43,349 nucleotides of DNA from a virus. The position numbers were made by a program, and so were the translations under genes. This document shows, piece after piece, positions 1-43,245 of this stretch (within the stretch, counting starts at the first letter, position 1; every line of letters starts with the position of its first letter). The stretch lies in IMG/VR virus record IMGVR_UViG_3300032829_000017, positions 1 through 43,349 of that record. One strand, given 5' to 3'. The notes under the pieces were generated by a model that saw only the letters and a program-made list of their open reading frames with translations, had not been told where the DNA came from and made no database searches.

Positions 1-136
1 CCGGCTCCGGCTACGGCGACGGCGACGGCTAGAGAAAGCGGACCGTTTGGGAACCGTTTCAGCGGAACAAAACGAGGCAAAGGCCGATGAGTGAACCAAA
101 CCTCAAGCCATGTCCGTTCTGCGGAGCCAATGTTAA
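1..136. repeat. Terminal direct repeat, left copy (assembly circularity)
   Basis: Bases 1-136 match 43214-43349 with a single difference (G at 10, T at 43223). This is what a circular or circularly permuted genome looks like when an assembler runs past its start. It contains the last codons and TAG (30-32) of the Gly/Ser/Tyr repeat protein that starts at 42883, and the start of the Lar-like gene. A true physical terminal repeat of this size is possible but less likely, because the break falls inside a low-complexity repeat and a coding region. Confidence 0.9.
42..74 (+). repeat. Start-associated repeat, copy 1
   Basis: The core ACCGTTTGGGAACCGTTTC is followed by AGCGGAACAAAACG. The core holds ACCGTTT twice, 11 bp apart, which is about one helical turn. 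It lies 45 bp upstream of the ATG at 87 and just after the stop of the preceding gene. Related copies are at 286, 685 and 972, with a truncated one at 1452; 43255 is the same copy seen again across the assembly junction. Confidence 0.85.
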
Positions 137-365
137 GTTCAGGAAGGCGCTTTGGCCAAGCGACGGCTGCGTCGATGGGATCATCCATGCCAATGAGACC
201 GATTGCGGACTAATCGAGTTTTCCAATTATACAACCGACGAAAGCATCATAGAGCTATGGAATCAGAGGATGGCAACCCCGGTGAACCGTTTGGGAACCG
301 TTTCAGCGGAACAAAACGCGACAAACGCGGGCGAACGTGAGCAAAAAAGCGAGGAAAATCAATGA
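87..365 (+). CDS. Lar-like restriction alleviation protein
   Basis: 92 residues. The N-terminus carries the LKPCPFCG zinc-knuckle signature of the Lar family (Pfam Lar_restr_allev), with an E-x-W-N-x-R segment near residues 56-61 (ELWNQR) that these short proteins usually have. E. coli Rac Lar reduces type I restriction by modulating the host enzyme; phage homologues are assumed to protect incoming DNA, which is inference here. The last 25 or so residues (from VNRLGTV) are encoded by start-associated repeat copy 2 and are nearly identical to the C-terminal tail of the gene at 761, so they are probably not part of the folded domain. The stop overlaps the next ATG (ATGA at 362-365). Confidence 0.75.
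   Translation: MSEPNLKPCPFCGANVKFRKALWPSDGCVDGIIHANETDCGLIEFSNYTTDESIIELWNQRMATPVNRLGTVSAEQNATNAGEREQKSEENQ
286..318 (+). repeat. Start-associated repeat, copy 2
   Basis: Same core as copy 1, here inside the 3' end of the Lar-like gene. It is followed at 331-361 by a second conserved block (GCGAACGTGAGCAAAAAAGC, then GAGGAAAATCA) containing the Shine-Dalgarno GAGG for the ATG at 362. Distance from core start to the next ATG is 76 bp, the same as copy 3. Confidence 0.85.
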
Positions 366-739
366 GCACCCATGAGAAATGCGCCAATTGCCGCTTTTGG
401 TCTGAGCTTGCGGCTCAATCAATCGGGTGCGGGCCAATCGAAGCCGTATGCCTTTGTTCCGGCAGTCCGCACAACGGAAAATTTGTCCGGGCGACAGCGT
501 CTTGCCCCAAGTTCGAGAATAGCTATGGGCACGCAATTGACGAGCCGGGATTGCCAGAAGGCTGGCATGAACGCTTGGCGAGGCAAAAGGCGCGCGCGGA
601 CGCCAATGGGCCCACGGATCAAGAAATTGACGCCAGCCAAAGCCTCCTGGCTGCTATCTTAGGCGAGGATAATGCCCCCGGTGGACCGTTTGGGAACCGT
701 TTCAGCGGAACAAACCGAGGCGAACGACGCCGAACGTGA
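362..739 (+). CDS. Small Cys-rich protein of unknown function
   Basis: 125 residues, not recognised. Residues 7-48 hold six cysteines (C7, C10, C23, C30, C32, C48) beginning with a CANC knuckle, suggesting a small zinc-binding fold. The C-terminal tail from GPFGNRF is encoded by repeat copy 3, read in a different frame from the tails of the genes at 87 and 761. The start is set by GAGGAAAATCA directly before ATG and by the 4-base ATGA overlap with the Lar-like gene. An alternative reading frame from 372 has no such signal. Second gene of the accessory cassette. Confidence 0.65.
   Translation: MSTHEKCANCRFWSELAAQSIGCGPIEAVCLCSGSPHNGKFVRATASCPKFENSYGHAIDEPGLPEGWHERLARQKARADANGPTDQEIDASQSLLAAILGEDNAPGGPFGNRFSGTNRGERRRT
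685..717 (+). repeat. Start-associated repeat, copy 3
   Basis: Core with one change near the end (AAACCG instead of AAAACG), lying in the 3' end of the gene at 362. It is followed by the second block CGAACGTGAGCAAAGAAGTG and GAGGAAAATCA at 731-760, ending at the ATG at 761. Core-to-start distance is 76 bp. Confidence 0.85.
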
Positions 740-760
740 GCAAAGAAGTGAGGAAAATCA

Positions 761-1054
761 ATGGCGTTAGCCGACTACTTTCTCTGCACCATTTGCGAAA
801 GCAAGACGTTTTATGACGCCGACATCAACTATGATTGGCCTACGGAGCCCTATAATCGTTACCGCAGCGATGGTGCTCAGTTGCCATGCGGCGTTGGCGA
901 TATACACGCGCTTTGCGTCGAATGCGCTAAGACGTACGAAATTGTCGTTAGGCCGCGTTGGCTCTCGGTGAACCGCTTGGGAACCGTTTCAGCGGAACAA
1001 AACGGGGCGGACGCGCACAAACGTGAGCAAAAAAGCGAGGAAAATCAACTATGA
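761..1054 (+). CDS. Small zinc-ribbon-like protein of unknown function
   Basis: 97 residues. Two CxxC knuckles (C9-T-I-C12 and C51-V-E-C54) are separated by about 40 residues, as in a treble-clef or zinc-ribbon fold; C43 is also present. No family is recognised. The C-terminal 28 residues from VNRLGTV are encoded by repeat copy 4 and match the tail of the Lar-like protein, in the same frame. Start chosen at ATG 761 after GAGGAAAATCA. The stop overlaps the HAD gene by 4 bases. Confidence 0.65.
   Translation: MALADYFLCTICESKTFYDADINYDWPTEPYNRYRSDGAQLPCGVGDIHALCVECAKTYEIVVRPRWLSVNRLGTVSAEQNGADAHKREQKSEENQL
972..1004 (+). repeat. Start-associated repeat, copy 4
   Basis: Core with one change (ACCGCTT for the first ACCGTTT). 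The second block ACGTGAGCAAAAAAGC and GAGGAAAATCA follows at 1021-1047 and leads to the ATG at 1051. Core-to-start distance is 79 bp, three more than copies 2 and 3, because of a CTA insertion right before the ATG. Confidence 0.85.
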
Positions 1055-1434
1055 AGCCAATTCTATGCCTCGATTTTGATGGCGTAATCCATAGTTATAA
1101 GAGCGGCTGGAAAGGGGCGCGCAACATACCAGATGATCCAGTCCCCGGCGCGCTATCCTTTATGGCAGAGCGGCTCGTTGATGGGTGGGATGTGGTCATT
1201 CACTCGTCGCGCGGACGATATTGGGGCGGAATAGCTGCGATGCGCGCTTGGTTGAAGCGCCATGCCGGGGGCATGTGGTACGACACGCCGGCCGGCAGCG
1301 GTCTTGAGAATGTTCGCTTTGTTCGATGGAAGCCGCCGGCGCTGGTGACGATCGATGATCGCGCAATTTGTTTCGATGGAACGTGGCCGCCACAAACAGC
1401 TCTGACGGGTTTTAAGCCATGGAACAAGCGATAA
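1051..1434 (+). CDS. HAD-superfamily phosphatase-like protein
   Basis: 127 residues, the size of a minimal HAD core. Motif I is LDFDGV with D8 as nucleophile and D10 as general acid; motif II is the Ser in VIHSSR (about 51); a Lys in VRWKPP fits motif III; IDDRAICF (about 101-108) fits motif IV with paired acidic residues that bind magnesium. Such small HAD proteins are common in phage accessory regions and are usually described as nucleotidases or polynucleotide 3'-phosphatase-like; the substrate here is unknown. It follows repeat copy 4 and overlaps the short gene at 1419 by 16 bases. Confidence 0.8.
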   Translation: MKPILCLDFDGVIHSYKSGWKGARNIPDDPVPGALSFMAERLVDGWDVVIHSSRGRYWGGIAAMRAWLKRHAGGMWYDTPAGSGLENVRFVRWKPPALVTIDDRAICFDGTWPPQTALTGFKPWNKR

Positions 1435-1679
1435 AGATTACTTGGATTGATGGGAACCGTTTCGAGCGGACTCCTTGGAGCGAAAGACGCCACGCATTGG
1501 AGGCAATTTACAGTCAGAATTTGAGGCCTCTGAATCTTTACAATTATATCACTCCTCCAAAAGACGTTTCTTCCGCTCCTCCTCCACCCGCTTCAGGAGC
1601 TGAGGCAGGAGATCGACCGCCTTCCGCTTCAGAGCGTGCTCCTGAGCCTTCAACGCCGTCGTCAGGACAGTCCTCGTGA
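1419..1679 (+). CDS. Doubtful short gene at convergent boundary
   Basis: 86 residues if real. The first 44 or so residues (ITWIDGNRFERTPW...) look like ordinary protein and include the truncated repeat copy 5. The remaining part is a Pro/Ser/Ala-rich stretch fully antisense to the leftward gene at 1549-1851 and is probably only an open shadow. The true gene may be a remnant invaded or cut when the cassette joined the late operon. No function is suggested. Confidence 0.35.
   Translation: MEQAIKITWIDGNRFERTPWSERRHALEAIYSQNLRPLNLYNYITPPKDVSSAPPPPASGAEAGDRPPSASERAPEPSTPSSGQSS
1452..1470 (+). repeat. Start-associated repeat, truncated copy 5
   Basis: GGGAACCGTTTCGAGCGGA matches the second half of the core with one inserted base. 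The first ACCGTTT and the Shine-Dalgarno block are missing. It marks the distal end of the cassette, close to where the leftward late operon ends. Confidence 0.5.
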
Positions 1680-1851
1680 CGTTGGCCCGGACAGCATGGA
1701 ACTTCACCGCCGTATCCGGTTCGAGGCCGGTCACGTCCAAGTCCATCAGCTCGCTCGCTACGCGCAGAGCCTGTCCCGTGTTCCGCTCGAGCGCCCTCGG
1801 GATGTCATCCTCGATCCTAACTGCGGGCATACCCTTGCGTCCGCGGGCCAT
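1549..1851 (-). CDS. Small helical protein of unknown function, last late gene
   Basis: 100 residues, basic N-terminus (ARGRKGMP), then predominantly helical and charged, ending in a Lys/Arg/Glu-rich helix (RVEEERKKRLLEE). No family recognised. ATG 1851 directly follows the stop of the exported protein at 1852, so it is translationally linked to the late operon. It is the last leftward gene and converges on the early operon; no clear terminator with a T-run is seen after its stop. Confidence 0.6.
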   Translation of the reverse strand: MARGRKGMPAVRIEDDIPRALERNTGQALRVASELMDLDVTGLEPDTAVKFHAVRANVTRTVLTTALKAQEHALKRKAVDLLPQLLKRVEEERKKRLLEE

Positions 1852-2205
1852 TCAAAACTCCATCGGGGCGAAGAAGCAGTATATCCGCGATTTCGTCTCG
1901 TCGGAATAGAACGCCCAAAAATCACCGTCTTGTGACGGAAGGGCGTCGCTATCCGGAATTAAGTGAGGAAGTCCATCAATGCGCCAGCAGCCTTGCGTCG
2001 CTCCTTTCCAGCATTCCTCGGCCGAGAGATGATGGACCCGATTGCCCTCAGGACCGAGGTTGTGGGCATCAGCCTTGCCGCAGCATTGCGCCTTGACCCA
2101 CGATGGGACCGGATCGCCGTTCTTCCATCGATCATGAGCATGAGCGCCCGTGGAAAGAATCAGACTAATGATCCAAGGAAAAAACCATCCCCGTCGCATA
2201 GCCAT
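1852..2205 (-). CDS. Exported small Cys-containing protein
   Basis: 117 residues. Arg-Arg-containing N-terminus, hydrophobic core (FFPWIISLILS) and a cleavage-like TGAHA|HD near residue 23 form a Sec signal peptide. The mature part is rich in Cys, Trp and His (CCGKADAH, EECWKG, QGCWRI, IYCFF), five Cys in all, suggesting disulfides or metal binding. A second in-frame ATG at 2199 is possible. It overlaps the end of the ATP-grasp gene by 41 bases. Function unknown; a role in the cell envelope at lysis or in superinfection immunity is conceivable but untested. Confidence 0.65.
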   Translation of the reverse strand: MAMRRGWFFPWIISLILSTGAHAHDRWKNGDPVPSWVKAQCCGKADAHNLGPEGNRVHHLSAEECWKGATQGCWRIDGLPHLIPDSDALPSQDGDFWAFYSDETKSRIYCFFAPMEF

Positions 2206-3487
2206 GACTCTGAAGTTCCGGAAGCTGCTTCGACAGCCGATCCCCTATATCCGTTCTCCACATCGGGGACCCTGGCATCTTGATGCGTCCGAGCCTACGG
2301 TAGGCCGTCTGCTTGGCCGAGTAAACGTCATCTCCGGTCGCGCTCATGACGAGCACGTAGTCGCCGGCCGTGACCGGCATCTTCTCCTTGACGACCTTGC
2401 CGTCCCGCTCGATCGGCGCCTCGCCCATCATGACCTCGCAGAAATGAACGTGGTCTTCCATACGAGGGGTGATTCCGTAGATCGGCGAGCCGACGACTTC
2501 CTTTCGCGTGAGGTGCGAATAGGGAAAGTCGGGGACCGAGACGACGACGCCGATCGCCACCGTGTCCATGATGAAGGGGCGAGAATCCCGCCCCTGGGCG
2601 AGGTCGTAAAGCCACTCGACGGGGTCGTCGTGAAGCTCCTGCTGAATGTTGAATGTCGGCCAGCCCGGACGCATGGTGAACTCTAGAGGCCAGGGAATCC
2701 CTTTATGGTCGATGATGCAGTTGACATCGATGTATCCGCAATAGTCCGTCTTTGCGAGCGCGTCGCCCAGAGGCTCCAACATCTTGCGGGCCAGCTTGGA
2801 GCGGCTGACATACCGAAGGACAGTTCCTTGCTCTCCGGTCGCGACGCCCTTATCCCCATCCATGAGCTTCTTGAACTCGAAATTCTCACAGAAGCCGTCA
2901 TTAAAGCCATGGGGTCCGAACCATCCCCCGACAGCCATCTCGATACCGTCTATGAACTCTTGCAGAAGAAACGGCGCCTTCAGCTTGCCGAGCTTCTTCC
3001 AGCGTTCGAGCATGAAGATCATATCTGGTGGTGAGTGCGAGCAATAGGAGAGCGCCTTGTCGGCGTCCCCGCTCGGCTTGCTGACGTACCGGCCATTCGT
3101 CTTCTTCACGAACGCGATCGCCTTGTCGTAATCGCTAAACTCGTGGCTGACGGGCGTCGCGATGCCGTGCTTGCGCATCACCTCCATGCCGACCTGCCGG
3201 TCCAGCTCCCATTGCGCGGTCTCGCGAGAAACGGAGATCGTCGGAACGCCGAGAGCCGACTTCGCCATCTCGATGTCCTGGACGTATTTCGTGTTATCGG
3301 AATTGAAGACGAGATCAGCCCACCGAAACCAGTCCTTGTAGTCATCGACGAGATCGACCATGCCGCGGCCGATGTGCTCGGTCTTGGGCGTCTGTCGAAT
3401 GAAATGCTTGATCGTATGGCCGTCATTCTTACAGCGCCACGAAAAATCGAGCGCCGCTCCATTCGGGTCGATGACGAGCAGTCTCAC
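2165..3487 (-). CDS. PurD-like ATP-grasp ligase
   Basis: About 440 residues from the GTG at 3487. That start is chosen because it overlaps the upstream TAG (TAGTG) and begins RLLVIDPNG, like the N-domain of glycinamide ribonucleotide synthetase (PurD). Further PurD-like blocks are: the ATP-grasp Lys segment (GRYVSKPSG), LLQEFIDGIEMAVGGWF (the grasp and substrate region), FEFKKLMDGDKGVATGEQG (like the PurD DGD-GPNTGGMG segment), the metal-binding PLEFTMRPGWP near residue 280, and a C-terminal WRTDIGDRL like the PurD end. Known ATP-grasp enzymes join a carboxylate to an amine or thiol via an acyl phosphate. There are no other purine genes, so a different substrate (virion protein, nucleotide or DNA base) is plausible. 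It sits among late virion genes. Confidence 0.75.
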   Translation of the reverse strand: MRLLVIDPNGAALDFSWRCKNDGHTIKHFIRQTPKTEHIGRGMVDLVDDYKDWFRWADLVFNSDNTKYVQDIEMAKSALGVPTISVSRETAQWELDRQVGMEVMRKHGIATPVSHEFSDYDKAIAFVKKTNGRYVSKPSGDADKALSYCSHSPPDMIFMLERWKKLGKLKAPFLLQEFIDGIEMAVGGWFGPHGFNDGFCENFEFKKLMDGDKGVATGEQGTVLRYVSRSKLARKMLEPLGDALAKTDYCGYIDVNCIIDHKGIPWPLEFTMRPGWPTFNIQQELHDDPVEWLYDLAQGRDSRPFIMDTVAIGVVVSVPDFPYSHLTRKEVVGSPIYGITPRMEDHVHFCEVMMGEAPIERDGKVVKEKMPVTAGDYVLVMSATGDDVYSAKQTAYRRLGRIKMPGSPMWRTDIGDRLSKQLPELQSHGYATGMVFSLDH

Positions 3488-4740
3488 TAGGCGCCACGCG
3501 GGTTGAGCATCCACGGGGCTTTTGACGCCAGCGCGTAGAGCTGCGGAAGCGTCAGACCGGGGAACTGGTTCGCCGTCAAGGATGGTTGACCCGGCGCCGG
3601 AGGATTTCCTCCCGGAGCGAGAGCCGTCATTCCCGTCATGCCGTTGGGAACGCCAAATCCAAAAACGGTCCCAAGCCCAATCGGAGAGGCCGTTTGTCCC
3701 GTCTGTCCCGTCTGTCCCGTCTGTCCCACTTGTCCCATGCCGCCTCGCTGAGCTGGCGCCCCCGGAGGAAGACCGGAGGCGATCGCGTTCGACAGTCCGG
3801 CCGGGCTATCCACCGCTTGCCCATAGGCGTTCATGCCCAAGCTGGGATATCCGATGTTGGCAGGCGTTGGTGCGCTAGGCGCGCTCTTCATGAGGTTCTG
3901 TATGGCCGTGATCGTCGTGTTCGCGTTGCTTGGATTGTCCGCCAAGTAGCCGAGGAGCTGGTTGAGCTGAGTCACGATCGCTGGATTCGAGAGCGCATTC
4001 TGCGCTTGGGCCGATTGAGCATTGACCCCGGCGAGCCCGGCGGCCATGCCCGCCTTTTGCGCCATCGCGTTCATGATCGCGTTCTGCTGAGCCTGCTGCT
4101 GATAGGCCAACGGGTTGTTGGCCACGACCGCAAGCGGGCTCAGCATCGTCGGCTGAGAGACCGGCGTCGCGAAGCGGTAGTTCATCATGTTGAAGGACTG
4201 CGGAGCGGTCGATCCCACGCCGCCGCCGGCGACCCCCCCAGCCCCTCCCGGCGAGCCGCCGAAAGCGCCGCCGCCGATTCCAGGCGCTGCTCCGGGCGCC
4301 GCTCCCACGCCTGCCGGCGCTCCGCCACCGAAGGCTCCCACGCCAGATGAGACGCCTCCGTAAGATCCTGTCGGGCTTCCGGGGGCGGCGCCTACAACTC
4401 CTGCTGTGCTGACGCCTGGGGGACCATTTGCGGGACCAAGGGCTCCCGTTACTCCGAAGCCCATGTTTCCAGTTGGGGCGCCGCTCAGGCCGAATCCGAA
4501 GGATGATGGCGTGCCAACCGTGCTTGTCCCCGGAGGAGCGGCGGACGGGTCTCCGACGTTGCCAAAGCCGGGCGCGAAGCCCATGGCTTGCGCGACTGCG
4601 GCGACCGTGCCGGGATCGACGCCGACCGAGCTGGGAGCAGCATCCTGACCCTCAGCCGTGGCCGAACCGATGCCGCTGGTATCGCCGCTGGTATCGCCGC
4701 CGCCATCGCCGCCTGCTCCGCCGCCGCCGCCGCCTGCCAT
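3487..4740 (-). CDS. Gly/Ala/Pro-rich probable virion protein
   Basis: 417 residues. The N-terminus is a Gly run followed by an acidic segment; residues 60-200 are Gly/Ala/Pro/Ser-rich low complexity; a more ordinary helical part with many Asn/Gln (about 200-300) follows; near residue 345 lies a GQT tripeptide repeat. No enzyme motif. Its place between the transglycosylase-bearing internal protein and the ATP-grasp gene, and its resemblance in composition to the two Gln-rich proteins upstream, suggest an internal or ejected virion protein. ATG 4740 lies 4 bases after the upstream stop. Confidence 0.6.
   Translation of the reverse strand: MAGGGGGGAGGDGGGDTSGDTSGIGSATAEGQDAAPSSVGVDPGTVAAVAQAMGFAPGFGNVGDPSAAPPGTSTVGTPSSFGFGLSGAPTGNMGFGVTGALGPANGPPGVSTAGVVGAAPGSPTGSYGGVSSGVGAFGGGAPAGVGAAPGAAPGIGGGAFGGSPGGAGGVAGGGVGSTAPQSFNMMNYRFATPVSQPTMLSPLAVVANNPLAYQQQAQQNAIMNAMAQKAGMAAGLAGVNAQSAQAQNALSNPAIVTQLNQLLGYLADNPSNANTTITAIQNLMKSAPSAPTPANIGYPSLGMNAYGQAVDSPAGLSNAIASGLPPGAPAQRGGMGQVGQTGQTGQTGQTASPIGLGTVFGFGVPNGMTGMTALAPGGNPPAPGQPSLTANQFPGLTLPQLYALASKAPWMLNPRGA
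3699..3734. repeat. 9-bp tandem repeat coding GQT
   Basis: The 9-mer GTCTGTCCC (plus strand) is repeated in tandem with degenerate flanks, encoding Gly-Gln-Thr triplets in the leftward gene. Such repeats change copy number easily by slippage; each change keeps the frame. Confidence 0.7.
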
Positions 4741-4744
4741 GACC

Positions 4745-7700
4745 CTATCTCCCTAACCACTGTTCTGCGCGTTTCTCCAATTCCTCGATCGGCCCGCGCG
4801 GCCTTTGGTAACGCTTCTGAGCCTGCTCTTCCGGCGTGCCGCCGCCCGAATAGCCGTGATAAGGCTTGAACGGCTTCCGAAGTCCCAAGCCCTGCTTGGC
4901 GAGCGATGCGGCGATGCCGATCGGCTTCTCTCCAGATAGACCGCGCGCCGCAGTCCCGTATGGAGAGACAAGGGATTGCGCCGCGTGCTCGCCCGTTTGC
5001 GCCGCGGTCCTGCCGTAGCGATGCGCCTCCCAATCGCCAGGCTCCCGAATGTTTCTTTTCGTGAACAAGTCCGTATTGAAGAACTCCTCGATTCCGAACT
5101 TGATAACAGGTGACAAGGTGATCGATCCCTGAACGACCTGATCCAACGGCTTTCCGCGCCACGCGTCCCAAATGTTCGTCGGGATCGTCAGCGATCCCTT
5201 CGGCCCTATCTCCAAATCCTGGTTTCCGGTCAACTTCTGAATGCCTCGATTGATCATGGGCCAGACGAGCGCTCCGAGAATGGCCGTCGCTAAGATATTT
5301 CCCATCGCCTCGAATTTCTGCTTCGGCGTGCCGACCGCCAAGTCCTTTGCCATGTGAGCATAGGACTTCCACTGTCCGTAGTGGTAGCGGGAAAAGGCCG
5401 TTAGGGACGGGTCTTTGAGCGCCAGCGCGAAGGTGCGCGATCCAAGGACCTCGGGAGGGATGCGATAGTTGGGGATGTGCTTCTCGGCGTCGGCGATCGC
5501 AGCGCGGGTGGACATGCCCTTGCGCTGCAACTCGAAGACGCGCTGCAACATGAACGCGTCGGATGTCGCCCATAGGGCGCGTGACGATACGTTGTAGAGC
5601 ATCCGGACGAGGTCGGACGGGCCGACGCCCATGGCGCGCGCAATCGGGTCCCACTTCGCCGGCTGACGCTTGACATCTTCTCCGAGCGTCTGAAGGAGCA
5701 TCCGGTAGAATTCTTGGTTGGCCACCGATCCGTAAACGAGGCCAGAGCCTTCCCTCAGCATCCGTTGATATTCCGGACCCTGAGTCACGACCTCGCGCAC
5801 CGCGCGCGCCGTATCGATCGCCAGGCTTTTCATTCCCTTGGGCGTCACCCAATCCCATCCGCGCGCCGTCACCCAATGCGCGCCTGCATTGAGCGCGTGC
5901 GGAACGGGCGAATAGAACATGCTTGTGACCGTGAAGCGGTTGATCGCCGCCAGCGCCTCGCCGAGAGCGGCCTTGCGATGCGACCAGAAGTCATCGATCA
6001 CGTTGGCGAATTTCGGCTCGAAATAATATCCTCGATACGGAGGGAATTCCGATCGCCGCCATCCTTCGGGAATGTTCGCTCCCGGCCGATCCTTGATCGT
6101 GTAGGCGTCCCATTCGGGCGTCTGCTTCAAGCGCTCGACTTCATGGATGGCGCGAACGACGGCGCGAAGCTGCATGACGTTCTTGGCCGTCGATGCGGCG
6201 GCGTTCTTGTAATACTGGACCTTGCCTTGCGTCGCGTGTTCTATTTCCGATGTGTTGGCTTGCTTGACCGTCCACTTCTCTCCATCCACCGTGAATTTAT
6301 CGCCCGGTTTCGTCGCCGCCCCCTCGTACCGCGGCAAAGGAGTGGCCTCGCCTTTCTCAACGATTACAGGTCCACGGTCATCGATCCTTACCGTTCGGCG
6401 CTTTCCGCTCTCGCTTTCGATCGCGTAGTAGAGGCGGTCCTTCATGGATGCGGTGGAACGCGCCCGGTAACCTTGAACCGGGCTCGTTGCTTCAGAGCCT
6501 TCCGTCCAAGGATCGAATTCCTTCGACTTGCCCTTGACCATACGGTGCTGATATTCAGGATCGAATTCCTTCAGGTCGAGTCCTATCGGCGACTTCTGCG
6601 CCTCTCGCCAAAGGGCGTATTCTTCCTGCTTCCATGGCCGCAGCGTTCGATCGAAAAGAGATTGCTCTTCGGGGGTTAGCTTGACTTTGGAGTCCGGCTC
6701 TCCTGCCTCGAAGAACTTCTTCTGCATCTCAGGAGTGAGCGCTTCGGCGGGCCATTGTCTAATGTCCTGTAGGGCTTGCGCCTTATCGGCCACCGCCGAC
6801 TGACGGAGGCGGAAGAAGCTGTCGTCGGTCGATTGAATGAACTGCTTCGTCGGAACCGGAGGAACCGCCTGATAAGATTGCAGGACCGCCTTGTCGGTTG
6901 CGGCGGCGCCGGCCGACTGAGGCGCGACGCCCGTCTCCTCAGCTCTCCGCGCGGCCGCTTCGGGAGGCGGACTGGCCTTCGGCGTTCCTTGCAAGTCCTC
7001 GCTATGAAGATGCTCTCCGGTCCCCGGCATGGCCTGGCCGGTTTGCTTGGCGATGTCCGCCCCCTCGCCGCGGTTGACGAACTCGCCCTTGTTCGTGGTG
7101 AAGCCCGGCTGTCCCTCGACGCCAGTCTCTCGGATCGCCGGATGGTTCGGTCCCTCGACCACGCCTTCGGGGGTCTTGATCGCGGGAGACTCGATGCGTG
7201 GGACGCGAGCGCCAAGGCCACCCTGCATGGGCGCGAATTCGAGCAGGTATTGCGTGAGGTCGCGCGCCGCGCGCCCCGGGTTTGGAACACCCGCTTTCGT
7301 GAATGCGGTCTCGGCCGCCCCCTGAATCTTCTCAGCCGTCCAATTGGTCACATCGCCCAGCTTGTCAGAAAGCCAGTCGGGGCTTTTCAGCTCCTCCCAG
7401 GAAGGAAGCCTGGCCTTCACCCATTCAGCAACGCGGCCGGCAACGCCCTCCGTAGGCGTCGGCGTGACGGGACGCGCGGGCCTTGATCCGGCCTGTTGCA
7501 GATCAAGCCGCTTGATCTGCATCTTCGGAAGCTTGCCGAGGTCGCGATCGTGAAGCGCGCCTCTCTGCAATGGCTGACCAGGCCATTTCTCTAACGGCTT
7601 GCCCGGCCACTGTTGCGGCAGGTTCTTCTCGACATTGGCGACATAGGCCGAGACGGGTTCATTCACGTCCCGCACGTTGGCTCGCCAAGGACGAGATGCG

Positions 7701-16091: not shown

Positions 16092-17444
16092 TCAGCCGAA
16101 AGTCGAGGCGAAGGCGCTCGTGCACTCGATGCGCATGAAGAACTGATTGTTCAGGATCATGACCGCCAAGAACACCTTCCAGCCGACGACCCTCAGTTGG
16201 TTGAGCACATCGCTCTTGTCCGCCGTCGAGAGGTACGAGTACTTGATGTCGTCCAGCATGACAACGGCGAAGGCGCCGCGGCCGAAGATGAAGGCCGGAT
16301 AGACCGTGACGCCGGTCGTGTTGCCGGGATAGGCCGGCGGCGTCTGAGAGATGCCAGTGCCGGTTATCGTCACGACCGTGGACGCCGGAAGCTGCGTCGC
16401 CTGCCCGGCCAATGGTCCCTGCGTTGGACCGGACGGCGACAGGCCGAGGTTCACCGGCGCGTTCGTGGTCCCGATGTATACGTTGTAAGAGTAACCCGCA
16501 GTGCTCGGGGTCGTGACCTGGATCGAGCCGTTCGGGCCGGTCACGCTGATCGAATTGGAGACGAGGGCGACATAGCTCTCGTACTGGTTCTGTGTATCCT
16601 GTCCGGTGACGAGGATGTAGTAGGTTCCGGTGGCGAGATTGCCCGAGCTGGTCGCGGTCCCGTTGACCTGCGCATATCCGGTCCAGTAGGGCACCATGTT
16701 GGTCGAGGTGAAGCGGACGCCCCCCAGCGCCCCGACCTCGGCATTGTAGAGCTTGTTCACATCCGAATAGGACGAGGCCAGCACGAAGGTCGCGTTCTCG
16801 CGAAGGTCCTGCTGGCACAATTCGTGGATGACGCCGACGTAGTGCGGGACCCCGGTCGGGCTTTCCGCCGCCCGCGTGACCTGCCCCTTCGTCGCGTCTT
16901 CCTTGAAATCGGTCTGCTCATCGCCCATGAAGCGCGGCGCGCCCAGAGTCGCGAGGGCGCCGTAGGCCCGATTGATCTCGTGAAGGTTGAGAACGTCGCC
17001 GGTGACGAGAGATGGACGAGATCCGCGGCTGTTGACGTAGTTGATCTGGGTTCCGCCCATCAACCCATTGAAAGTGTTCCTTTCGAGAGTTTCCGCCACC
17101 GCCAGAGCGCAAAGCTGTTTGGCGATGTTGAACATCGGATGCTTGATCGTCAGTTCCGCGACATCGGTGAGCGTGATCTTGTCGCCCCACTGGATCGCGG
17201 TTCCCGAGACCATGGTGACGGTCATGTTCTGGCCGACCGGCGGGACGCCTTCAGAAAGCGACGTGTACGGCAGAGGGACGCGATTCCAGCGCGCTGCCTG
17301 ATAGACCACGCCGCGGCCCTTGGGCAGTTCCAGAGGATCAGCGAACTGATAAACAACCAGTCTTCGACGCGCGAGAGGAAGCGTTTCCTGCGCGATATAG
17401 GCTTCGACGTCGGCTTGAAAGGAAGCGCTCTGATTGATCGCCAT
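16092..17444 (-). CDS. Major capsid protein, N4-gp56 family
   Basis: 450 residues. Residues 36-100 carry the family pattern: PLELPKGRGVVYQAARW, then LSEGVPPVGQNMTVT and QWGDKITLTDVAELT. These proteins have the HK97 coat fold. Residues of about 258-378 form an inserted Ig/FN3-like beta domain (GTYYILVTGQDTQ, YSYNVYIGTTNAPVNLG) that would project from the shell; without it the core is about 330 residues, the usual size. ATG 17444 follows GGAGAGCGGACT. Directly preceded by the scaffold gene, as expected. Confidence 0.88.
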   Translation of the reverse strand: MAINQSASFQADVEAYIAQETLPLARRRLVVYQFADPLELPKGRGVVYQAARWNRVPLPYTSLSEGVPPVGQNMTVTMVSGTAIQWGDKITLTDVAELTIKHPMFNIAKQLCALAVAETLERNTFNGLMGGTQINYVNSRGSRPSLVTGDVLNLHEINRAYGALATLGAPRFMGDEQTDFKEDATKGQVTRAAESPTGVPHYVGVIHELCQQDLRENATFVLASSYSDVNKLYNAEVGALGGVRFTSTNMVPYWTGYAQVNGTATSSGNLATGTYYILVTGQDTQNQYESYVALVSNSISVTGPNGSIQVTTPSTAGYSYNVYIGTTNAPVNLGLSPSGPTQGPLAGQATQLPASTVVTITGTGISQTPPAYPGNTTGVTVYPAFIFGRGAFAVVMLDDIKYSYLSTADKSDVLNQLRVVGWKVFLAVMILNNQFFMRIECTSAFASTFG

Positions 17445-21040: not shown

Positions 21041-23200
21041 TCACATCCTCGGCGCCGAGTTAGGGTCGCGCAACCTGTCCTGATGGATCATCCCCGGAGG
21101 CCCTTGCGAGCGCGGCCCGGACGGCGAGGCGCCGATGCGCGGTTGTCCGCCGCCACGCCCGCCGCCGCCCGGCTGAGGCTGGGGCTGTTGCTGTTGCATC
21201 TGCTGTTGCTGCGCGGCCTGTATGGCTTGAAGATGAGCCATGATGTGAACCTTGAAATAGTTTTTAGGATCGCCGTCCATCTGCGCGGCCTGCATGTGCG
21301 CCTGGATATGCTTTTGATGGTCGTCCATGATATGAACCGGGACGACGAAGCCCTGCGCAAGAAGCTCATTCTCCTGCTCGGGCTCCATCGACAACTCCAT
21401 GCGGGAGTCTCGGAATGTCAATGGCGCTAGACGCGGCCCAAACAGGTTCTCGATCATCTGAGAAAGGACCGGACCAAGATCAATCCTGTATCCTTGATAT
21501 AGTTGTGGCGGTATCCCTCGAAGGACGTTTAATCCCGCAATCTGCTGCTGCATCTGCTGAGCATTTCGATTCGCCTCCACTCCAAACCATCGGAACTGAT
21601 ATAAACGATCCATTCTTACTAAAGGAATTTCGATCATATTTGAACGCATTCCTGTCGGACCGTATTCGCGAACTCGTAAAGACTTGTCGCGAAACTGATG
21701 GTCGAGCTCCAGCATTCTTAGGAGAATGGGAGAAAAGATTTCGTCTTCAAGCACCGTCACCGCGTCGGAGGTCGTGAGGATGTCGATCTGCTGCTCGTTG
21801 GCGATCTCGGCCTGATTTGGCTTTTTGCGCGGCGTATTGGCGATTCCGGTTATCTGCGCCGGGTTGACCGAGAGAGACTGGAAAATCTCGTTCTTGGCGG
21901 TCGCGACGATCTCGAGGCCGTCCTTCCACAAGGGCGGCATTTGCGCGAATTGGGTGGACTGCGGATCGGTTTCCCAGATCGCCGCCAATGACAGGATCAT
22001 CGAGCCGACCTTCGGGTTCTTTTCCGGGTCGGTCATGATGATCGGCATGAGAGCGTAGGCGGCGCTATCCATCGCCTCGTTGCAGGCGTCGTTGGCCTGG
22101 TACTGCAGATCGGCCACGGAATCGACCTTCGGAACGCCCTTGAAGCAGCCATCGATTTGGTCGATCGGCGCGCTGAGAATGTCGATACGATCCGACCAGT
22201 AGGGGTTGCGCTTGGCCGATATGACGCGATTGCGGCCGGCGTAGTAGGCCAGGCATAGCCTTCGCTCGCCCTTGATCGTGAGCTTGATCCAGGTCCGGTA
22301 GACGAGGGCGTATTTGCCGCGTCCATCGCCCTTGATGCCCGCCGCATCGATCATGGGCTTCATCTTGTCGGCGTTCTGCTTGAATTTCTCCTCGTTCTTC
22401 AGCTCCTGCAAAAGCTCCTCGCCGAACTCCTCGTCGATCTCGTCGAGCGCGATCTTTCTCATGATCATCGCCGGCGTCCAGCGGCAGAGCGTCGTCACCG
22501 AGCCGCCTTGCTCGATGGCGTCTTCCAAGCTCGTCGCCGTGACCGGAAGGACGAGCAGATCGCAATCGGCGATCACCCGGACCTCGGGCGCCCCTTGAAC
22601 GAGCTCCTCCTCCTCGATGTCCTCTATTTCCTCCAAGGCCTCCAATGGCGCTCCCTGCTCGTCCTGAGGCCGCACCGAGACCCTTTGCGCGACGTGGCGC
22701 CGCTGCTCCTCCCACGTCACTTGGACGGTGACCTGCCCCTCGATGTCTCCATTCTTGCAAAGCGCCGGCGCAATGCGCGTGCGAAGCTTAGTCTGGCGGA
22801 CGTAATGCTCGAGAAGAGCCATCTCCGTCTGCGGCAGCGTGCCATCCTCGCTCGTAACCTCGACATGCCGGCCCGACATTGGAAAGAGCTGATTGACGAA
22901 TCGCGTCTTGCGCGCCTCGACCGCATTGCGCACGATCGGCACGAAAATCTGTGAGTTCCCGTTGTAGAACTGGCTATTGCCGAGGACGCAATTGTAGATG
23001 TCCCAATTGTCCATTGCGTTGTCGGAGCGCTCGGCCTGCTGGTCGAAGCCTTTTTCGATGTCCTTGAACGCTTCGAGGAGCGCGTCGCGGATGTTCTCCT
23101 TGCGGCATAGCTGCTCCGACCGATCCATCCTTTCTTCGGCTTCGGAGACCTCGCGGACTTCTCCCGGATCGTTTCGGACCTTTTTCGCCGCTTTTTTCAC
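21041..23200 (-). CDS. Portal protein
   Basis: 719 residues, the size of podoviral portals. Helical N-terminus, then YNGNSQIFVPIVRNAVEARKTRFVNQLFP, a typical wing entry; a middle with KGVPKVDSVADLQYQANDACNEAMDSA and NPAQITGIANTPRKKPNQAEIANEQQ, the region of the portal stem; and a Gln/Gly-rich C-terminus (residues 640-700) that could form the barrel or a disordered tail. The start is GTG 23200, two bases after the stop of the upstream gene, with GGGGTC in front. Position between tail-repeat protein and lysis-like genes is unusual; portals are usually next to terminase. Confidence 0.8.
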   Translation of the reverse strand: MKKAAKKVRNDPGEVREVSEAEERMDRSEQLCRKENIRDALLEAFKDIEKGFDQQAERSDNAMDNWDIYNCVLGNSQFYNGNSQIFVPIVRNAVEARKTRFVNQLFPMSGRHVEVTSEDGTLPQTEMALLEHYVRQTKLRTRIAPALCKNGDIEGQVTVQVTWEEQRRHVAQRVSVRPQDEQGAPLEALEEIEDIEEEELVQGAPEVRVIADCDLLVLPVTATSLEDAIEQGGSVTTLCRWTPAMIMRKIALDEIDEEFGEELLQELKNEEKFKQNADKMKPMIDAAGIKGDGRGKYALVYRTWIKLTIKGERRLCLAYYAGRNRVISAKRNPYWSDRIDILSAPIDQIDGCFKGVPKVDSVADLQYQANDACNEAMDSAAYALMPIIMTDPEKNPKVGSMILSLAAIWETDPQSTQFAQMPPLWKDGLEIVATAKNEIFQSLSVNPAQITGIANTPRKKPNQAEIANEQQIDILTTSDAVTVLEDEIFSPILLRMLELDHQFRDKSLRVREYGPTGMRSNMIEIPLVRMDRLYQFRWFGVEANRNAQQMQQQIAGLNVLRGIPPQLYQGYRIDLGPVLSQMIENLFGPRLAPLTFRDSRMELSMEPEQENELLAQGFVVPVHIMDDHQKHIQAHMQAAQMDGDPKNYFKVHIMAHLQAIQAAQQQQMQQQQPQPQPGGGGRGGGQPRIGASPSGPRSQGPPGMIHQDRLRDPNSAPRM

Positions 23201-34026: not shown

Positions 34027-34206
34027 TCACTTCCCCCTCTTCCCCGCCACGGCTCCACCTCGCGGCTTTGCCTTGTTCTTGTTGATAGTCGCGTAGCCAA
34101 TGGACTTGGCCTTCTTAGGGCTCATGCCCTTCTTCCTCTCAGAGGTCGCGATGTGCGCCGCCTGACGATCTTCCTTCTCCGAGAACCTGTGTCCCTTACC
34201 CGGCAT
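34027..34206 (-). CDS. Very small basic protein next to terminase
   Basis: 59 residues from ATG 34206 to TGA 34027: MPGKGHRFSEKEDRQAAHIA, then a helix with SERKKGMSPKKAKSIGYATI and a basic tail. Fourteen or more Lys/Arg suggest nucleic-acid binding. The SPxKAxSIGYATINK pattern recurs in small phage and bacterial proteins of unknown function. It lies between terminase and the zinc-ribbon gene; GAGAAGGAC is in front. Easily missed because of its size. Confidence 0.65.
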   Translation of the reverse strand: MPGKGHRFSEKEDRQAAHIATSERKKGMSPKKAKSIGYATINKNKAKPRGGAVAGKRGK

Positions 34207-34230
34207 TGTCCTTCTCCATCAAAGCCATGG

Positions 34231-34521
34231 TTATCGCGAGTCGGCTTTTTTCCTCGCCCGACGCTTCCTCATGTACTCCCGCATGTACTCCCGGTGCGCG
34301 GTGTTCCTGTCCTTCCAGTTCAAGCTCGGCGACGTAGCCGCAGAACTTGCAGAACAGAAAGACGGCGGGACGATCGTAGCCGGGCTTGACGATAAAGTCT
34401 CTGGTGAGACGGATGTCGGGGTGAGCGGAGCACCGCCATCGCTCCGGGATTCGATTCTGCACACATGCTCCGTCCCCCATCGAAACTTCTCTCCACACTT
34501 GAAGCACTTGTCAACAATCAT
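34231..34521 (-). CDS. Zinc-ribbon protein with internal frame conflict, first late gene
   Basis: One open frame of 96 residues starts with MIVDKCFKCGEKFRWGTEHVC (CxxC and HxC knuckle) after AGGA and ends with HREYMREYMRKRRARKKADSR, a basic helix. Its middle (about residues 30-66) is Ser/Pro/Thr low complexity. In the other frame, 34320-34440 encodes HPDIRLTRDFIVKPGYDRP and FLFCKFCGYVAELE with GC-rich third codon positions and another CxxC. The best protein is therefore N-terminus in one frame, middle in the second, C-terminus back in the first. Two compensating indels (error or mutation), or two overlapping genes (34231-34521 and 34196-34480), would explain this. Confidence 0.5.
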   Translation of the reverse strand: MIVDKCFKCGEKFRWGTEHVCRIESRSDGGAPLTPTSVSPETLSSSPATIVPPSFCSASSAATSPSLNWKDRNTAHREYMREYMRKRRARKKADSR

Positions 34522-34822
34522 CTGTTAGTCCTAACACACCCCCATTTTCAAGTCAAATTCCCATTATCCGAACGAAACCCCGGTCTCAGACCCCATTCTG
34601 ACCAAACTCGCTTCACCGAGTTCATCTATCTTTACAGAGAAGCAGAAAAAGATTACGGAATTCGTGCGGTTCCGAGGGAGGGGGTAATTATAAATCCGCC
34701 CTCGCAGGCCCCCTGTCCCTGACCCCGAGTTGTCCATGGGGAATAGGATTAGGAGGTGCTAAGTCATTGATTATTAGTAGGAAGGTCTTGACGGCCTCGC
34801 CATACGCTTATTTCAAGAGCTT
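34522..34822. promoter_or_regulatory. Divergent intergenic region, late promoter candidates
   Basis: About 300 bases without a convincing gene between the leftward late operon and the rightward block. Minus strand: TTGACT (34556-34551), 17 bases, TAGGAC (34533-34528), which would give an almost leaderless transcript for ATG 34521; and a perfect TATAAT at 34692-34687 without a good -35. CGAGGG (34673-34678) and CCCTCG (34699-34704) form an inverted repeat around this AT-rich box. On the plus strand TTGACG at 34789-34794 is a weak candidate for the next gene. A short TTG-started frame at 34767 is considered doubtful. Confidence 0.4.
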
Positions 34823-35287: not shown

Positions 35288-35338
35288 CCACTAATTTAGG
35301 TCACAGTCAACACGTGATGCGACAATGCTATTTTGTTG

Positions 35339-35367
35339 TTGACACTTTGGCACGCATGTGCTTTTCA
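35339..35367 (+). promoter_or_regulatory. Candidate promoter with TTGACA box
   Basis: TTGACA (35339-35344) in the context TTTTGTTGTTGACA, similar to TTTTGTCGTTGACA at 39956-39969 in the repressor control region. Spacing of 17 leads to a poor -10 (TTTTCA). The likeness suggests shared control of both rightward blocks. Confidence 0.35.
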
Positions 35368-35380
35368 ATGAGTCTGACGT

Positions 35381-35412
35381 CGCCTCACCCTCGAACAGGA
35401 GAAACGAAAATG
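35381..35412 (+). repeat. Repeated leader, copy 1
   Basis: CGCCTCACC followed by CTCGAACAGGAGAAACGAAA and ATG. It matches 35844-35875 at 31 of 32 positions. Contains the Shine-Dalgarno AGGAG 9 bases before ATG. A second start-associated repeat type, unrelated to the one at 42-1470. Confidence 0.85.
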
Positions 35413-35838: not shown

Positions 35839-35843
35839 CCACC

Positions 35844-35875
35844 CGCCTTACCCTCGAACAGGAGAAACGAAAATG
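35844..35875 (+). repeat. Repeated leader, copy 2
   Basis: Second copy of the leader, ending in the ATG at 35873. A shorter fragment, TGACCACCCGCCTAACC at 36251-36267, matches the segment just ahead of copy 2 (TGACCACCCGCCTTACCC), now placed in the next gene. Confidence 0.85.
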
Positions 35876-36253
35876 CGCACCGCGAATGATTATTTGCCGG
35901 ACATTCAAAAGGCCTTGACGACCGGCGGACACATGTCCATTGGCCGAGGAGGCGCGACAATTGAATGGCTAAACGAATGGGGAGGGCGATCCACTCTGTC
36001 CGGGTTCGACCCTGACTTTGTGAAGCCATTGGCTATCGCGGCCGGATTGCCAGTCATCGATAGCCGCAACGTTCCATTCCACGAAGTTTACCGCCTCGCT
36101 TTCAAAGGGCCGATGATCGCGGTTCCTGGCAACAAGCCCAGCAAGTTTTTGTCCGACAGCTCCTCTGAGCCTTGGGGATCCCTTGACTATGCGCCTCTCG
36201 CCTACGTCGCCGGCGCCTACAGAGCGGCGGGCGCCGAAGTCTACAACATATGA
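35873..36253 (+). CDS. Hypothetical protein
   Basis: 126 residues starting MRTANDYLPDIQKALTTGGH. Contains IGRGGATIEWLNEWGG and FHEVYRLAFKGPMIAVPGN; ends YVAGAYRAAGAEVYNI. Mixed alpha/beta, no recognised motif. The AGGAG leader fixes the start. Overlaps the next gene by 4 bases (ATGA). Confidence 0.6.
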   Translation: MRTANDYLPDIQKALTTGGHMSIGRGGATIEWLNEWGGRSTLSGFDPDFVKPLAIAAGLPVIDSRNVPFHEVYRLAFKGPMIAVPGNKPSKFLSDSSSEPWGSLDYAPLAYVAGAYRAAGAEVYNI

Positions 36254-36435
36254 CCACCCGCCTAACCATAGTCATGGCCGCGCTGCTTGCGGCCATGCTC
36301 GCCATCAGCCTCCCGCATGGCCCTAGGCTCTACCCTGACCATGCGGGAACCCTCAAATGCGAGCGCATCGGAATCCGGGCGCTATGCGTCTATCGTCCAA
36401 CCACTGCCCAGAGCGAAGCGAAGGGGTGGAAGTAA
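36250..36435 (+). CDS. Tiny protein with signal peptide or membrane segment
   Basis: 61 residues: MTTRLTIVMAALLAAMLAIS as hydrophobic leader, then LKCERIGIRALCVYRP with two Cys. Probably exported or inner-membrane anchored; unknown role. Coupled to the upstream gene through ATGA. Confidence 0.5.
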   Translation: MTTRLTIVMAALLAAMLAISLPHGPRLYPDHAGTLKCERIGIRALCVYRPTTAQSEAKGWK

Positions 36436-36446
36436 ACAGGAGACTT

Positions 36447-36964: not shown

Positions 36965-36968
36965 TTTG

Positions 36969-37226: not shown

Positions 37227-37235
37227 GGTGTCCTC

Positions 37236-38304: not shown

Positions 38305-38332
38305 ATCTGCCAGAATGTGCTTCCCTTGATTA

Positions 38333-39023: not shown

Positions 39024-39025
39024 TT
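38986..39025 (+). terminator. Rho-independent terminator
   Basis: GGCCGGG ... CCCGGCC stem (38986-39014) with inner GC pairs around TTCAAGAGA, followed by CTTTCTTTTT. The T-run is on the plus strand, so it ends rightward transcription. It overlaps the end of the leftward gene at 39024. Confidence 0.8.
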
Positions 39026-39912: not shown

Positions 39913-39917
39913 CAAGC

Positions 39918-39997: not shown

Positions 39998-40015
39998 AAT
40001 CGATAGGAGGTCAAT

Positions 40016-40512: not shown

Positions 40513-41192
40513 GCGAGGAATTCTGGAACAACGATCGGATCGAGAAGCTGATCGCGCCTCTGGATCGCAAGCACGTCAAGGAACGGACCCAAGGCGGCCG
40601 CCCCCTCTCCTACATCGAGGGGTGGCACGTCATCAGGGAGGCCAATCGCATCTTCGGCTTCGGAGGATGGCATCGCGAAACAGAAGAGATGAGATGCGTC
40701 GTCGAGAAAGAGCGTGAGATTGGCCGTGACAAGAAGCCCGGATGGAGCGTCACCTACGTCGCTCGAGTTCGCATCGCCGTAGGCGGAACCTGTCGGGATG
40801 GAACGGGAACCGGAAGCGGCATCGATGTCGATCTCGGCCAGGCTCATGAGAGCGCCGCCAAGGAAGCGGAGACGGACGCCACCAAGCGCGCGCTTATGAC
40901 CTTCGGCTATCCCTTCGGGCTCGCCCTCTACGACAAGTCTCAAGAGCATGTCGTCGATTCGCCGGAACCCGCTGTGGTCCTTCCTCCGCTCAACGAGGCG
41001 CAAGAAGCCTATGTTTCCGCCGCCACACAAATCATCAAAGATGCGACGGACGCCGAAAAATTAAAGAGTTGGTGGAACTCGGCGCCACAGAAAACGAACC
41101 GGGGTTTGTTGCCTCGCGACATGCAGGTCGTCCTTTTGGAAGCGTGCAAGGCGAAGCTGGTCGAGTTGGGAGGGAATAGTGCCTCTAATTGA
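40509..41192 (+). CDS. Rad52-family single-strand annealing protein
   Basis: 227 residues from ATG 40509 (ATGA overlap); the long open frame upstream to 39972 is only a shadow. LIAPLDRKHVKERTQGGRPLSYIEGWHVI, ANRIFGFGGWHRET, and HESAAKEAETDATKRALMTFGYPFGLALYDK are hallmark Rad52/22-family segments. The protein anneals complementary single strands made by a 5' exonuclease, here probably the YqaJ-like protein two bases-overlap downstream. Residues 150-227 form a helical tail with unknown partner. It gives the phage its own RecA-independent recombination. Confidence 0.9.
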   Translation: MSEEFWNNDRIEKLIAPLDRKHVKERTQGGRPLSYIEGWHVIREANRIFGFGGWHRETEEMRCVVEKEREIGRDKKPGWSVTYVARVRIAVGGTCRDGTGTGSGIDVDLGQAHESAAKEAETDATKRALMTFGYPFGLALYDKSQEHVVDSPEPAVVLPPLNEAQEAYVSAATQIIKDATDAEKLKSWWNSAPQKTNRGLLPRDMQVVLLEACKAKLVELGGNSASN

Positions 41193-41817
41193 TGTCGTTC
41201 AAGGAACCCCAGAGTGGCGCGCGGCCCGCCTCGGCAAGGTCACGGGCTCGAGGATCGCCGATGTCATGGCGCGCACCAAGAGCGGATGGGCCGCCTCGCG
41301 CGCGAACTACATGACCGAACTCATTCTAGAGGAACTGACGGGCCAGCCGGCCGAGAGGTACCAGTCGCAGGCGATGCTCGACGGGATCGAGCGAGAGCCA
41401 GAGGCGCGCGCGGCTTACGAGCGCCATCAAGGCGTCCTCGTCCATACGACCGGCTTCTGGACGCATCCAAACATCGAGCGCGCCGGCGCCTCCCCGGATG
41501 GCCTAGTCGAGGAGCTTGGAGAGCCGCCCGGCGGCGTCGAGTTCAAGTGTCCCATTCCGGCGACGCATTTGGAAACTTTGCTCACGAAAAAGGTCCCCGG
41601 CGCTTACCTGAAGCAGGTCTATTGGAACATGGCGTGCACGGAGCGGTCATGGTGGGATTATGTCAGCTATCGTCCCGCGTTTCCGGAACATCTGCGCCTA
41701 TTCGTCAAGCGCATCCATTTTGACGGATGCGAGGTTATGAATATCGAAATTTTGGTAGCGGATTTCATCACCGAGCTCGAAGGCAAGCTCGCTACGGTGC
41801 GAGGATTGATGTCATGA
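41179..41817 (+). CDS. YqaJ-like (lambda-exonuclease family) nuclease
   Basis: 212 residues from GTG 41179. DVVQGTPEWRAARLGKVTGSRIADVM is the family opening; E in ILEELTG, D in GASPDGLVEE and E-x-K in GVEFKCP form the catalytic PD-(D/E)XK set; QVYWNMACTERSWWDYVSY follows. The enzyme digests 5' strands of DNA duplexes to feed the annealing protein. It overlaps the Rad52-like gene by 14 bases. Together they make an exo-SSAP pair like lambda Exo and Beta. Confidence 0.88.
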   Translation: MPLIDVVQGTPEWRAARLGKVTGSRIADVMARTKSGWAASRANYMTELILEELTGQPAERYQSQAMLDGIEREPEARAAYERHQGVLVHTTGFWTHPNIERAGASPDGLVEELGEPPGGVEFKCPIPATHLETLLTKKVPGAYLKQVYWNMACTERSWWDYVSYRPAFPEHLRLFVKRIHFDGCEVMNIEILVADFITELEGKLATVRGLMS

Positions 41818-42599: not shown

Positions 42600-42899
42600 A
42601 TGGATCTTACCGGAAGATATGTCATCGTACGATGCAGAGACGCTGGCGTTCATGCTGGTGTTTTGATAAGCCATTCTGGCAGAGAATGCCTTTTGCAAGA
42701 CGCAAGACGGCTTTGGTATTGGAAGCCCGCTAGCAAAGGCGCATTCTTAAGCGGTGTAGCCTTATATGGCCTTGACACCGCAAGCAAGGTTGGCGAGCCG
42801 GTTACTATTCTCCTAACAGAGAATTGCGAAATTATTCTATGCACTCAAGACGCTGAATTCTCTATTAGGCAGGCAAAAGTCAATGTCAATGGAAAATAG
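42600..42899 (+). CDS. DUF6948-like phage protein
   Basis: 99 residues from ATG 42600, preceded by AAAGGAGCAAGAG. YVIVRCRDAGVHAGVL, CLLQDARRLWYWKPASKG and FLSGVALYGL recall a phage family described as DUF6948 (from memory, not searched). Its GC content is lower than that of its neighbours, 42600-42890 being AT-richer. Followed by an overlapping Gly/Ser/Tyr repeat gene, an association I recall in other phages, unverified. Confidence 0.6.
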   Translation: MDLTGRYVIVRCRDAGVHAGVLISHSGRECLLQDARRLWYWKPASKGAFLSGVALYGLDTASKVGEPVTILLTENCEIILCTQDAEFSIRQAKVNVNGK

Positions 42900-43245
42900 C
42901 GATGGCTCCGGCTCCGGCTCCGGCTCCGGATACGGCTACGGCTATGGCGATGGCTCCGGCTCCGGCTATGGCTCCGGCTCCGGCTCCGGCTCCGGATACG
43001 GCTACGGCTATGGCGATGGCTCCGGCTCCGGCTATGGCGATGGCTCCGGCTCCGGCTCCGGATACGGCTCCGGCTATGGCGATGGCTCCGGCGATGGCGA
43101 CGGCTCTGGCTCCGGCTCCGGCTCCGGCTACGGCTCCGGCTCCGGCTACGGCTCCGGCTATGGCGATGGCTCCGGCTCCGGCTACGGCTCCGGCTACGGC
43201 TCCGGCTACGGCTCCGGCTCCGTCTACGGCGACGGCGACGGCTAG
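42883..43245 (+). CDS. Gly-Ser/Tyr/Asp repeat protein
   Basis: 120 residues: MSMENSDGSG, then only Gly alternating with Ser, Tyr and Asp (GSGSGYGYGYGDGSGSGYG and so on), ending YGDGDG. DNA is a microsatellite of GGCTCC, GGCTAC/GGCTAT and GGCGAT/GGCGAC units, so all six frames are open in large part, but this frame has the proper start in overlap with the gene at 42600 and avoids the Arg-Ser or Ala-Pro runs of the others. Such Gly-Tyr-Ser sequences can form phase-separating or sticky disordered chains. Start-associated repeat copy 1 follows its stop across the circular junction. Confidence 0.65.
   Translation: MSMENSDGSGSGSGSGYGYGYGDGSGSGYGSGSGSGSGYGYGYGDGSGSGYGDGSGSGSGYGSGYGDGSGDGDGSGSGSGSGYGSGSGYGSGYGDGSGSGYGSGYGSGYGSGSVYGDGDG
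42900..43242. repeat. Hexanucleotide GGCTCC/GGCTAY/GGCGAY array
   Basis: About 340 bases of 6-mer units with period 6 and higher-order periods, coding the Gly-X chain. Prone to copy-number change and to assembly collapse; the single mismatch between the two genome ends (10 versus 43223) is located here. Confidence 0.9.

Follow-up and report, generated by a model that had tools for sequence, protein, structure and literature searches.

A start-associated repeat at gene junctions in the accessory region of a phage genome

Introduction

Short repeats placed ahead of gene starts are known from several phages. In the cluster K mycobacteriophages, the start-associated sequence (SAS) is 13 bp long and of the GGGATAGGAGCCC-like type, typically lies 3-7 bp from the start codon, and is found cluster-wide, its 11-19 copies lying in the right-hand half of the genome; a second element, ESAS, is an upstream imperfect 17-bp inverted repeat, and in phage Adephagia the ESAS copies have been interpreted as promoters of a SigA-like type (PMC11373665). 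Microbacterium cluster EF phages carry an SAS/ESAS-like motif of 13 bp, present in ten copies and conserved within the cluster (PMC7302621), and Citrobacter phage Mordin carries a 26-bp repeat (PMC4611695). Our literature search turned up start-associated repeats in Mordin and in clusters K and EF, and no account of the core sequence described here.

We analysed the full 43,349 bases of a virus record from IMG/VR (hereafter, the window), in which a repeat precedes the starts of four small genes. What is new in this case is that the repeat is found in none of the relatives searched and is fused onto gene ends.

Results

Window positions 43214-43349 repeat positions 1-136 with one mismatch, and one relative (G008) has a self-overlap of exactly 127 bases. 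We take the record to be a closed genome, apparently cut in or beside a Gly-rich ORF; on this reading, the repeat copy at 43253 and copy 1 are the same. The phage encodes a major head protein (phrog_1357), a large terminase (phrog_38) and a portal protein (phrog_1216), together with the following.

39178-39594, RusA
39667-39930, Cro/CI-like HTH protein
40539..41192, + strand, Rad52-family single-strand annealing protein (PF04098, 1.3e-36)
41179..41817, + strand, YqaJ-type exonuclease (PF09588, 2.4e-23)
42883..43245, + strand, Gly-rich 120-aa ORF, which stops just before copy 1

The phage's own annealing protein, invoked in a preliminary description of this DNA, is thus of the Rad52 family and is accompanied by an exonuclease. 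The Gly-rich ORF, in or beside which the contig ends, consists mainly of Gly-Ser, Gly-Tyr and Gly-Asp dipeptides. Other repeats in the window include about 12 internal repeats, with a period mostly of 99 nt or near multiples, in a 1315-aa protein (23202-27149, - strand), and a 26-nt exact repeat, TCCGTAACGTTACGCGTAACGTTACT, at 38054-38145, inside the ORF at 37759-38304 (- strand), where SNVTRNVT is encoded twice.

The core of the start-associated repeat, GRACCGYTTGGGAACCGTTTCAGCGGAACAAA, is about 31 nt long (box A) and occurs in four copies, all on the + strand, with starts at 40/41, 284/285, 683/684 and 970/971. In three of these, box A is followed by a variable spacer and a downstream box of our own labelling, box B (AACGTGAGCAAARAAGYGAGGAAAATCA), which carries a putative ribosome-binding site.

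41..71, + strand, copy 1 core (box A); then GAGG at 74-77 and ATG at 87; without box B
285..315, + strand, copy 2 core (box A)
316..333, + strand, copy 2 variable spacer
334..361, + strand, copy 2 box B with GAGG ribosome-binding site; then ATG at 362
684..714, + strand, copy 3 core (box A)
715..732, + strand, copy 3 variable spacer
733..760, + strand, copy 3 box B; then ATG at 761
971..1001, + strand, copy 4 core (box A)
1002..1019, + strand, copy 4 variable spacer
1020..1047, + strand, copy 4 box B; then ATG at 1051
1451..1463, + strand, partial copy, 13 nt exact; inside the ORF at 1419-1679, with no start after it

The first ACCGTTT of each core, at 42, 286, 685 and 972, precedes its start codon by 45, 76, 76 and 79 bp in copies 1-4, which reproduces the four full copies at 45-79 bp before successive starts given in the preliminary description; the second conserved block that it placed in three copies was also recovered, GAGGAAAATCA being present in three. 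Its partial fifth copy exists as an exact 13-nt match but is not start-associated, lying 32 nt into a possible gene. The two ACCGTTT heptamers of each core, described as 11 bp apart, are so spaced from start to start, which leaves a 4-bp gap; a pair with an 11-bp gap was not found in the window. Copies 2-4 share a unit of 85-99 nt that extends through the ribosome-binding site up to the ATG (79-85% identity over 99 nt and 88-90% over 83-88 nt, in two alignments), with 46-49 nt between box A and the ATG. In copy 1, 15 nt separate the end of box A from the ATG. A tandem heptamer in four direct copies within about 1 kb could also suggest iterons or another replication or packaging site; we consider this exceedingly improbable, since the copy-to-copy spacing is irregular (244, 399 and 287), every full copy stands at a gene start, and a second repeat family elsewhere in the genome has the same placement.

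Allowing up to 3 mismatches, the 21-mer TGGGAACCGTTTCAGCGGAAC has 5 matches in the window against 0.00 expected from 100 shuffles, the fifth (43261) being copy 1 counted again at the overlapping ends. A position-weight scan of the whole window detected no extra copy above shuffle level. We conclude that this is a real, non-random, start-associated junction repeat. Across copies 2-4, 2 of 31 columns vary in box A and 2 of 28 in box B, against 10 of 18 in the spacer (Fisher p = 2.5e-5, an optimistic value since the box limits were chosen after the alignment was seen). Because the boxes are conserved while the upstream genes use different frames, the constraint is on their DNA or RNA and not on protein. 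Derivation of box B from a decayed box A was rejected (457 of 2000 shuffles score as high).

Three of the four copies lie inside the reading frame of the gene upstream. The genes at the junctions are as follows.

87..365, + strand, Lar-type restriction alleviation protein (PF14354, residues 5-61 of 92); repeat-coded tail
362..739, + strand, 125-aa Cys-containing protein, no family assigned; tail formed by the repeat in another frame
761..1054, + strand, phrog_19621-type protein (residues 1-65 of 97); repeat-coded tail
1051..1434, + strand, HAD-like protein (PF18143, under the curated cut-off); without tail

The claim that unrelated proteins end either in a VNRLGTV tail or in its other-frame reading is borne out. 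The C-termini of ORFs 87-365 and 761-1054 are VNRLGTVSAEQ...REQKSEENQ and VNRLGTVSAEQ...REQKSEENQL, a common tail of 27-31 residues, and ORF 362-739 ends in GPFGNRFSGTNRGERRRT, from the other frame. A BLASTP comparison of the four downstream proteins (E up to 0.1) reported no similarity beyond the repeat-coded tail that two of them share. Two proteins ending in the same stretch might indicate a selected peptide, such as a targeting or degradation tag; this is highly improbable, given that the third gene uses another frame, the fourth stops before the repeat, and spacer changes, as read from the alignment, mostly alter amino acids.

The bodies of the Lar and phrog_19621 proteins match their families, and the repeat-coded tails are extra here. 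A 79-aa homologue from Pseudomonas phage LC3I3 aligns to residues 1-66 of 97 of ORF 761-1054, so that the last aligned residue falls about 3-4 codons before the repeat, with the repeat-coded part beginning near residue 70. Since both bodies are complete before the repeat, and the third gene enters it in another frame, the repeat unit appears to have been joined to already finished genes. The gene bodies have a G+C content of 50.8-58.0%, against 59.3% for the genome. Upstream regions of four homologues of the downstream genes (HAD genes of Bradyrhizobium phage ppBjS10J-1, Microcystis phage Mwe-JY25 and relative G036, and the LC3I3 gene) all scored at shuffle level against the repeat; with the same scoring, copy 3 against copy 4 gave 112, a value reached by 0 of 500 shuffles.

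We looked for expression signals in and around the copies. The preliminary description had suggested that the ACCGTTT pair could serve as a promoter, and the results speak against this, although weakly: no sigma-70-like hexamers were found in window 1-2000, sigma-70 may not be the host's promoter type, and the same scan found none on the + strand of 34700-43349 either, which makes the null at the repeat a weak one. Its further suggestion, that the phage HTH protein binds the core, was not supported. Predicted RNA folding of the copies did not exceed that of shuffles (z between -0.06 and 1.09), and a hairpin was rejected on these values; Rfam gave no match for the repeat. The scans likewise led us to reject a sigma-70 promoter and a terminator within the copies, and the idea of an operator was dropped when palindromes guessed near the repressor gene proved not to be above chance. 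Over window 34700-43349, no terminator-like sites were found, against 7.7 expected in shuffles. As a promoter of another type could have produced the same nulls, we describe box A as an expression signal of unspecified level.

One of the nearest known counterparts is Mordin (KT363872, bases 1-50000 examined). There too, among the matches listed, long repeated blocks (77-115 nt, 86-99%) end at the ATG of small accessory genes; the Mordin blocks are intergenic and carry sigma-70-like hexamers (TTTACA-17-TAAGAT), whereas the present copies have no such hexamers and three of four lie within the upstream frame. By analogy with Mordin or the Adephagia ESAS, each copy could comprise its own promoter (box A) and leader (box B), giving every gene a separate transcription start. 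In copies 2-4, the 46-49 nt that separate box A from the ATG would suit a promoter with a short leader, but the scan of window 1-2000 found no sigma-70-like site, with the caveat on host promoter type given above, and copy 1, with 15 nt from the end of box A to the ATG, leaves little room for a leader. We judge this reading quite unlikely.

The same genome contains a second start-associated family, of sequence CGCCTyACCCTCGAACAGGAGAAACGAAAATG, before two genes unrelated to each other.

35381..35412, + strand, second family copy a, ending in ATG
35844..35875, + strand, second family copy b, ending in ATG
36251..36267, + strand, possible partial third copy, by eye; 16 of 17 nt like 35836-35852

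Both 36251-36267 and 35836-35852 begin at a TGA stop codon. An exact 23-mer of this family is absent from IMG/VR. A relationship between box B and this family was rejected (735 of 2000 shuffles score as high).

To place the repeat among related phages, we collected head-protein relatives from IMG/VR (the best 80 of 505) and 11 terminase loci; GTDB genomes yielded no terminase (TerL) relatives. Within 3 mismatches, the core is absent from all 60 relatives searched (10 of 10 and 50 of 50), a set that may lack those closest to the window. The preliminary description had held that absence of the core from all relatives would overturn its proposal, and absence is what these 60 show, although the gene cluster itself is in none of the relatives read. 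Exact searches found neither a 20-mer of the core in GTDB genomes nor a 21-mer in IMG/VR; four IMG/VR matches to 17- to 19-base core patterns were dismissed as chance from their context.

Among 32 relatives read, we detected no homologues of genes 87-365, 362-739 or 761-1054, and the HAD gene has a homologue in one (G036, 50%). The accessory cassette described earlier is a small-gene cluster that shares a single gene, in one case, with these relatives. None of the 32 carries the cluster, and no gene was seen to be joined or lost at the repeat among them, which counts against a junction module. In G003 and G001, the corresponding place is taken by a large opposite-strand gene that adjoins the structural genes; near that place in G008 (34035-34442), we noted by eye a candidate protein with a Lar-like CPFCG stretch.

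We also surveyed the relatives for junction repeats of any sequence, using BLAST self-hits (18-200 nt, >=85%, E up to 1e-3, >150 nt apart; up to 12 self-hits per record, judged by eye). Among the matches listed, 3 of 32 relatives have junction repeats of other, unrelated sequence with SD and ATG. In G016 (48 nt, 88%), both upstream genes end in a like tail plus ATGA, the design seen in the window. The repeat of G054 (68 nt, 90%) extends into the coding sequence of the next gene, which counts against a junction module. That of G010 (22 nt, 100%) lies at both ends of one gene; one of its ATGs opens only a 7-codon frame, a further point against such a module. An automatic ATG test, which did not flag G010, was applied to the window, to 7 GenBank stretches and to 10 of the 32 relatives. 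In register were 68 of 74 self-hits in Mordin, 0 of 1 in Sulfitobacter phage NYA, 0 of 0 in EBPR podovirus 2, 0 of 0 in the Mvi-Yong1342-1 stretch, 0 of 2 in the ppBjS10J-1 stretch, 1 of 3 in the Mwe-JY25 stretch (19 nt, E 0.01) and 0 of 0 in the LC3I3 stretch.

Several other repeats came to light in these relatives. Loci L132 (G022, 705-6875) and L135, L136 and L143 (G023) hold about ten tandem paralogous genes, in which the junction with the next start is embedded in a common tail, ARAWATLYTKEG (ARAWAHLYIKEG in some); G023 has nine junctions to the ten of G022, and its contig ends there. As tandem paralogues, G022 and G023 were dropped as the best parallel and are not counted. In L124 (G016, 16389-17138), neighbouring small genes share RAQNAELVA and an AALAAA tail as a mosaic. 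A 25-nt repeat, TTGACAAATGCGTTAAACCTGTTAT, promoter-like by eye, occurs at 13617 and 18561 in G001 and at 5536 and 10134 in G002. Dense repeats coding AYEEA-type units were seen in small genes in L025 (G003, 45-1313; period about 33 nt) and G021 (21424-21668). G003, G022 and G023 are given here from among the matches listed.

Discussion

The preliminary description likened this repeat to the SAS of cluster K. The likeness holds in how the repeat works: both families described here stand in register with the starts of unrelated genes, on one strand, in a non-structural region. As with SAS and ESAS, short repeats precede unrelated non-structural genes mostly in one orientation, and a ribosome-binding part is joined in a subset by a second conserved element upstream. 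By sequence or conservation, the repeat is no member. Read directly, the copies have no GGGATAGGAGCCC near the starts, box B being of another sequence; no inverted repeat with nearby arms was detected in positions 1-1100, box A being a direct heptamer repeat; and the core is conserved in 0 of 60 relatives. Unlike SAS, the unit is 85-99 nt long, in four copies within 1 kb, partly in coding sequence and in one phage only. Cluster EF is similar in having a start-associated motif of different sequence in another phage group, and differs in that its motif is 13 bp, in ten copies and cluster-conserved.

We think it probable that the repeat serves an accessory operon as a gene-junction module, which supplies start signals to acquired genes and has been copied by recombination. 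Box B, from its position, would bind ribosomes and lead into the next gene's ATG, and box A would be a conserved DNA or RNA signal, probably for expression of the downstream gene. Recombination may have linked unrelated genes to copies of the module, with copying possibly carried out by the phage's own Rad52/YqaJ pair, since both are encoded. Where the join removed the upstream stop codon, the gene would read into the module and be extended by about 20-30 residues; two of the three tails finish in an ATGA stop-start overlap, which may couple translation.

Several observations argue for such a module: copies stand before four starts, aligned to the ATG in three; a second, unrelated family elsewhere in this genome has the same placement, and junction repeats occur in 3 of 32 relatives among the matches listed; homologues of the upstream proteins stop where the repeat begins, and homologues of the downstream genes lack it; the boxes are conserved against a free spacer (with the optimistic p noted above); and the gene bodies differ in G+C. 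Against it stand copy 1, which lacks box B, the small number of copies (four), the post hoc box limits, and the want of a promoter-like site (a weak null), of an RNA fold above shuffles and of an Rfam match.

Alternatively, the repeat could be a passive recombination scar or homology patch, a chance duplication kept by Rad52-type annealing, in which an ordinary ribosome-binding site alone contributes to expression and segments are continually gained, lost and made uniform as copies anneal with one another. The Rad52 and YqaJ genes, the restriction of the sequence to one phage, and the unrelated junction repeats of the three relatives (among the matches listed) all suit this explanation. Block-wise conservation around a free spacer would be unexpected under neutral decay, although short-tract gene conversion could mimic it. 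We regard the scar as possible but unlikely.

More broadly, but as a rather improbable extension of the module reading, this phage group may repeatedly make private gene linkers, with an end-plus-start junction copied onto incoming genes by its own annealing system. If so, a gene with a linker at both ends would splice into the operon in translatable form, at the cost of a standard tail. Little is understood of how phages build newly acquired genes into functioning operons. With unrelated versions elsewhere in this genome and among relatives, a repeat that closes one gene and opens the next offers a concrete and testable candidate for a junction through which new genes could be expressed immediately.
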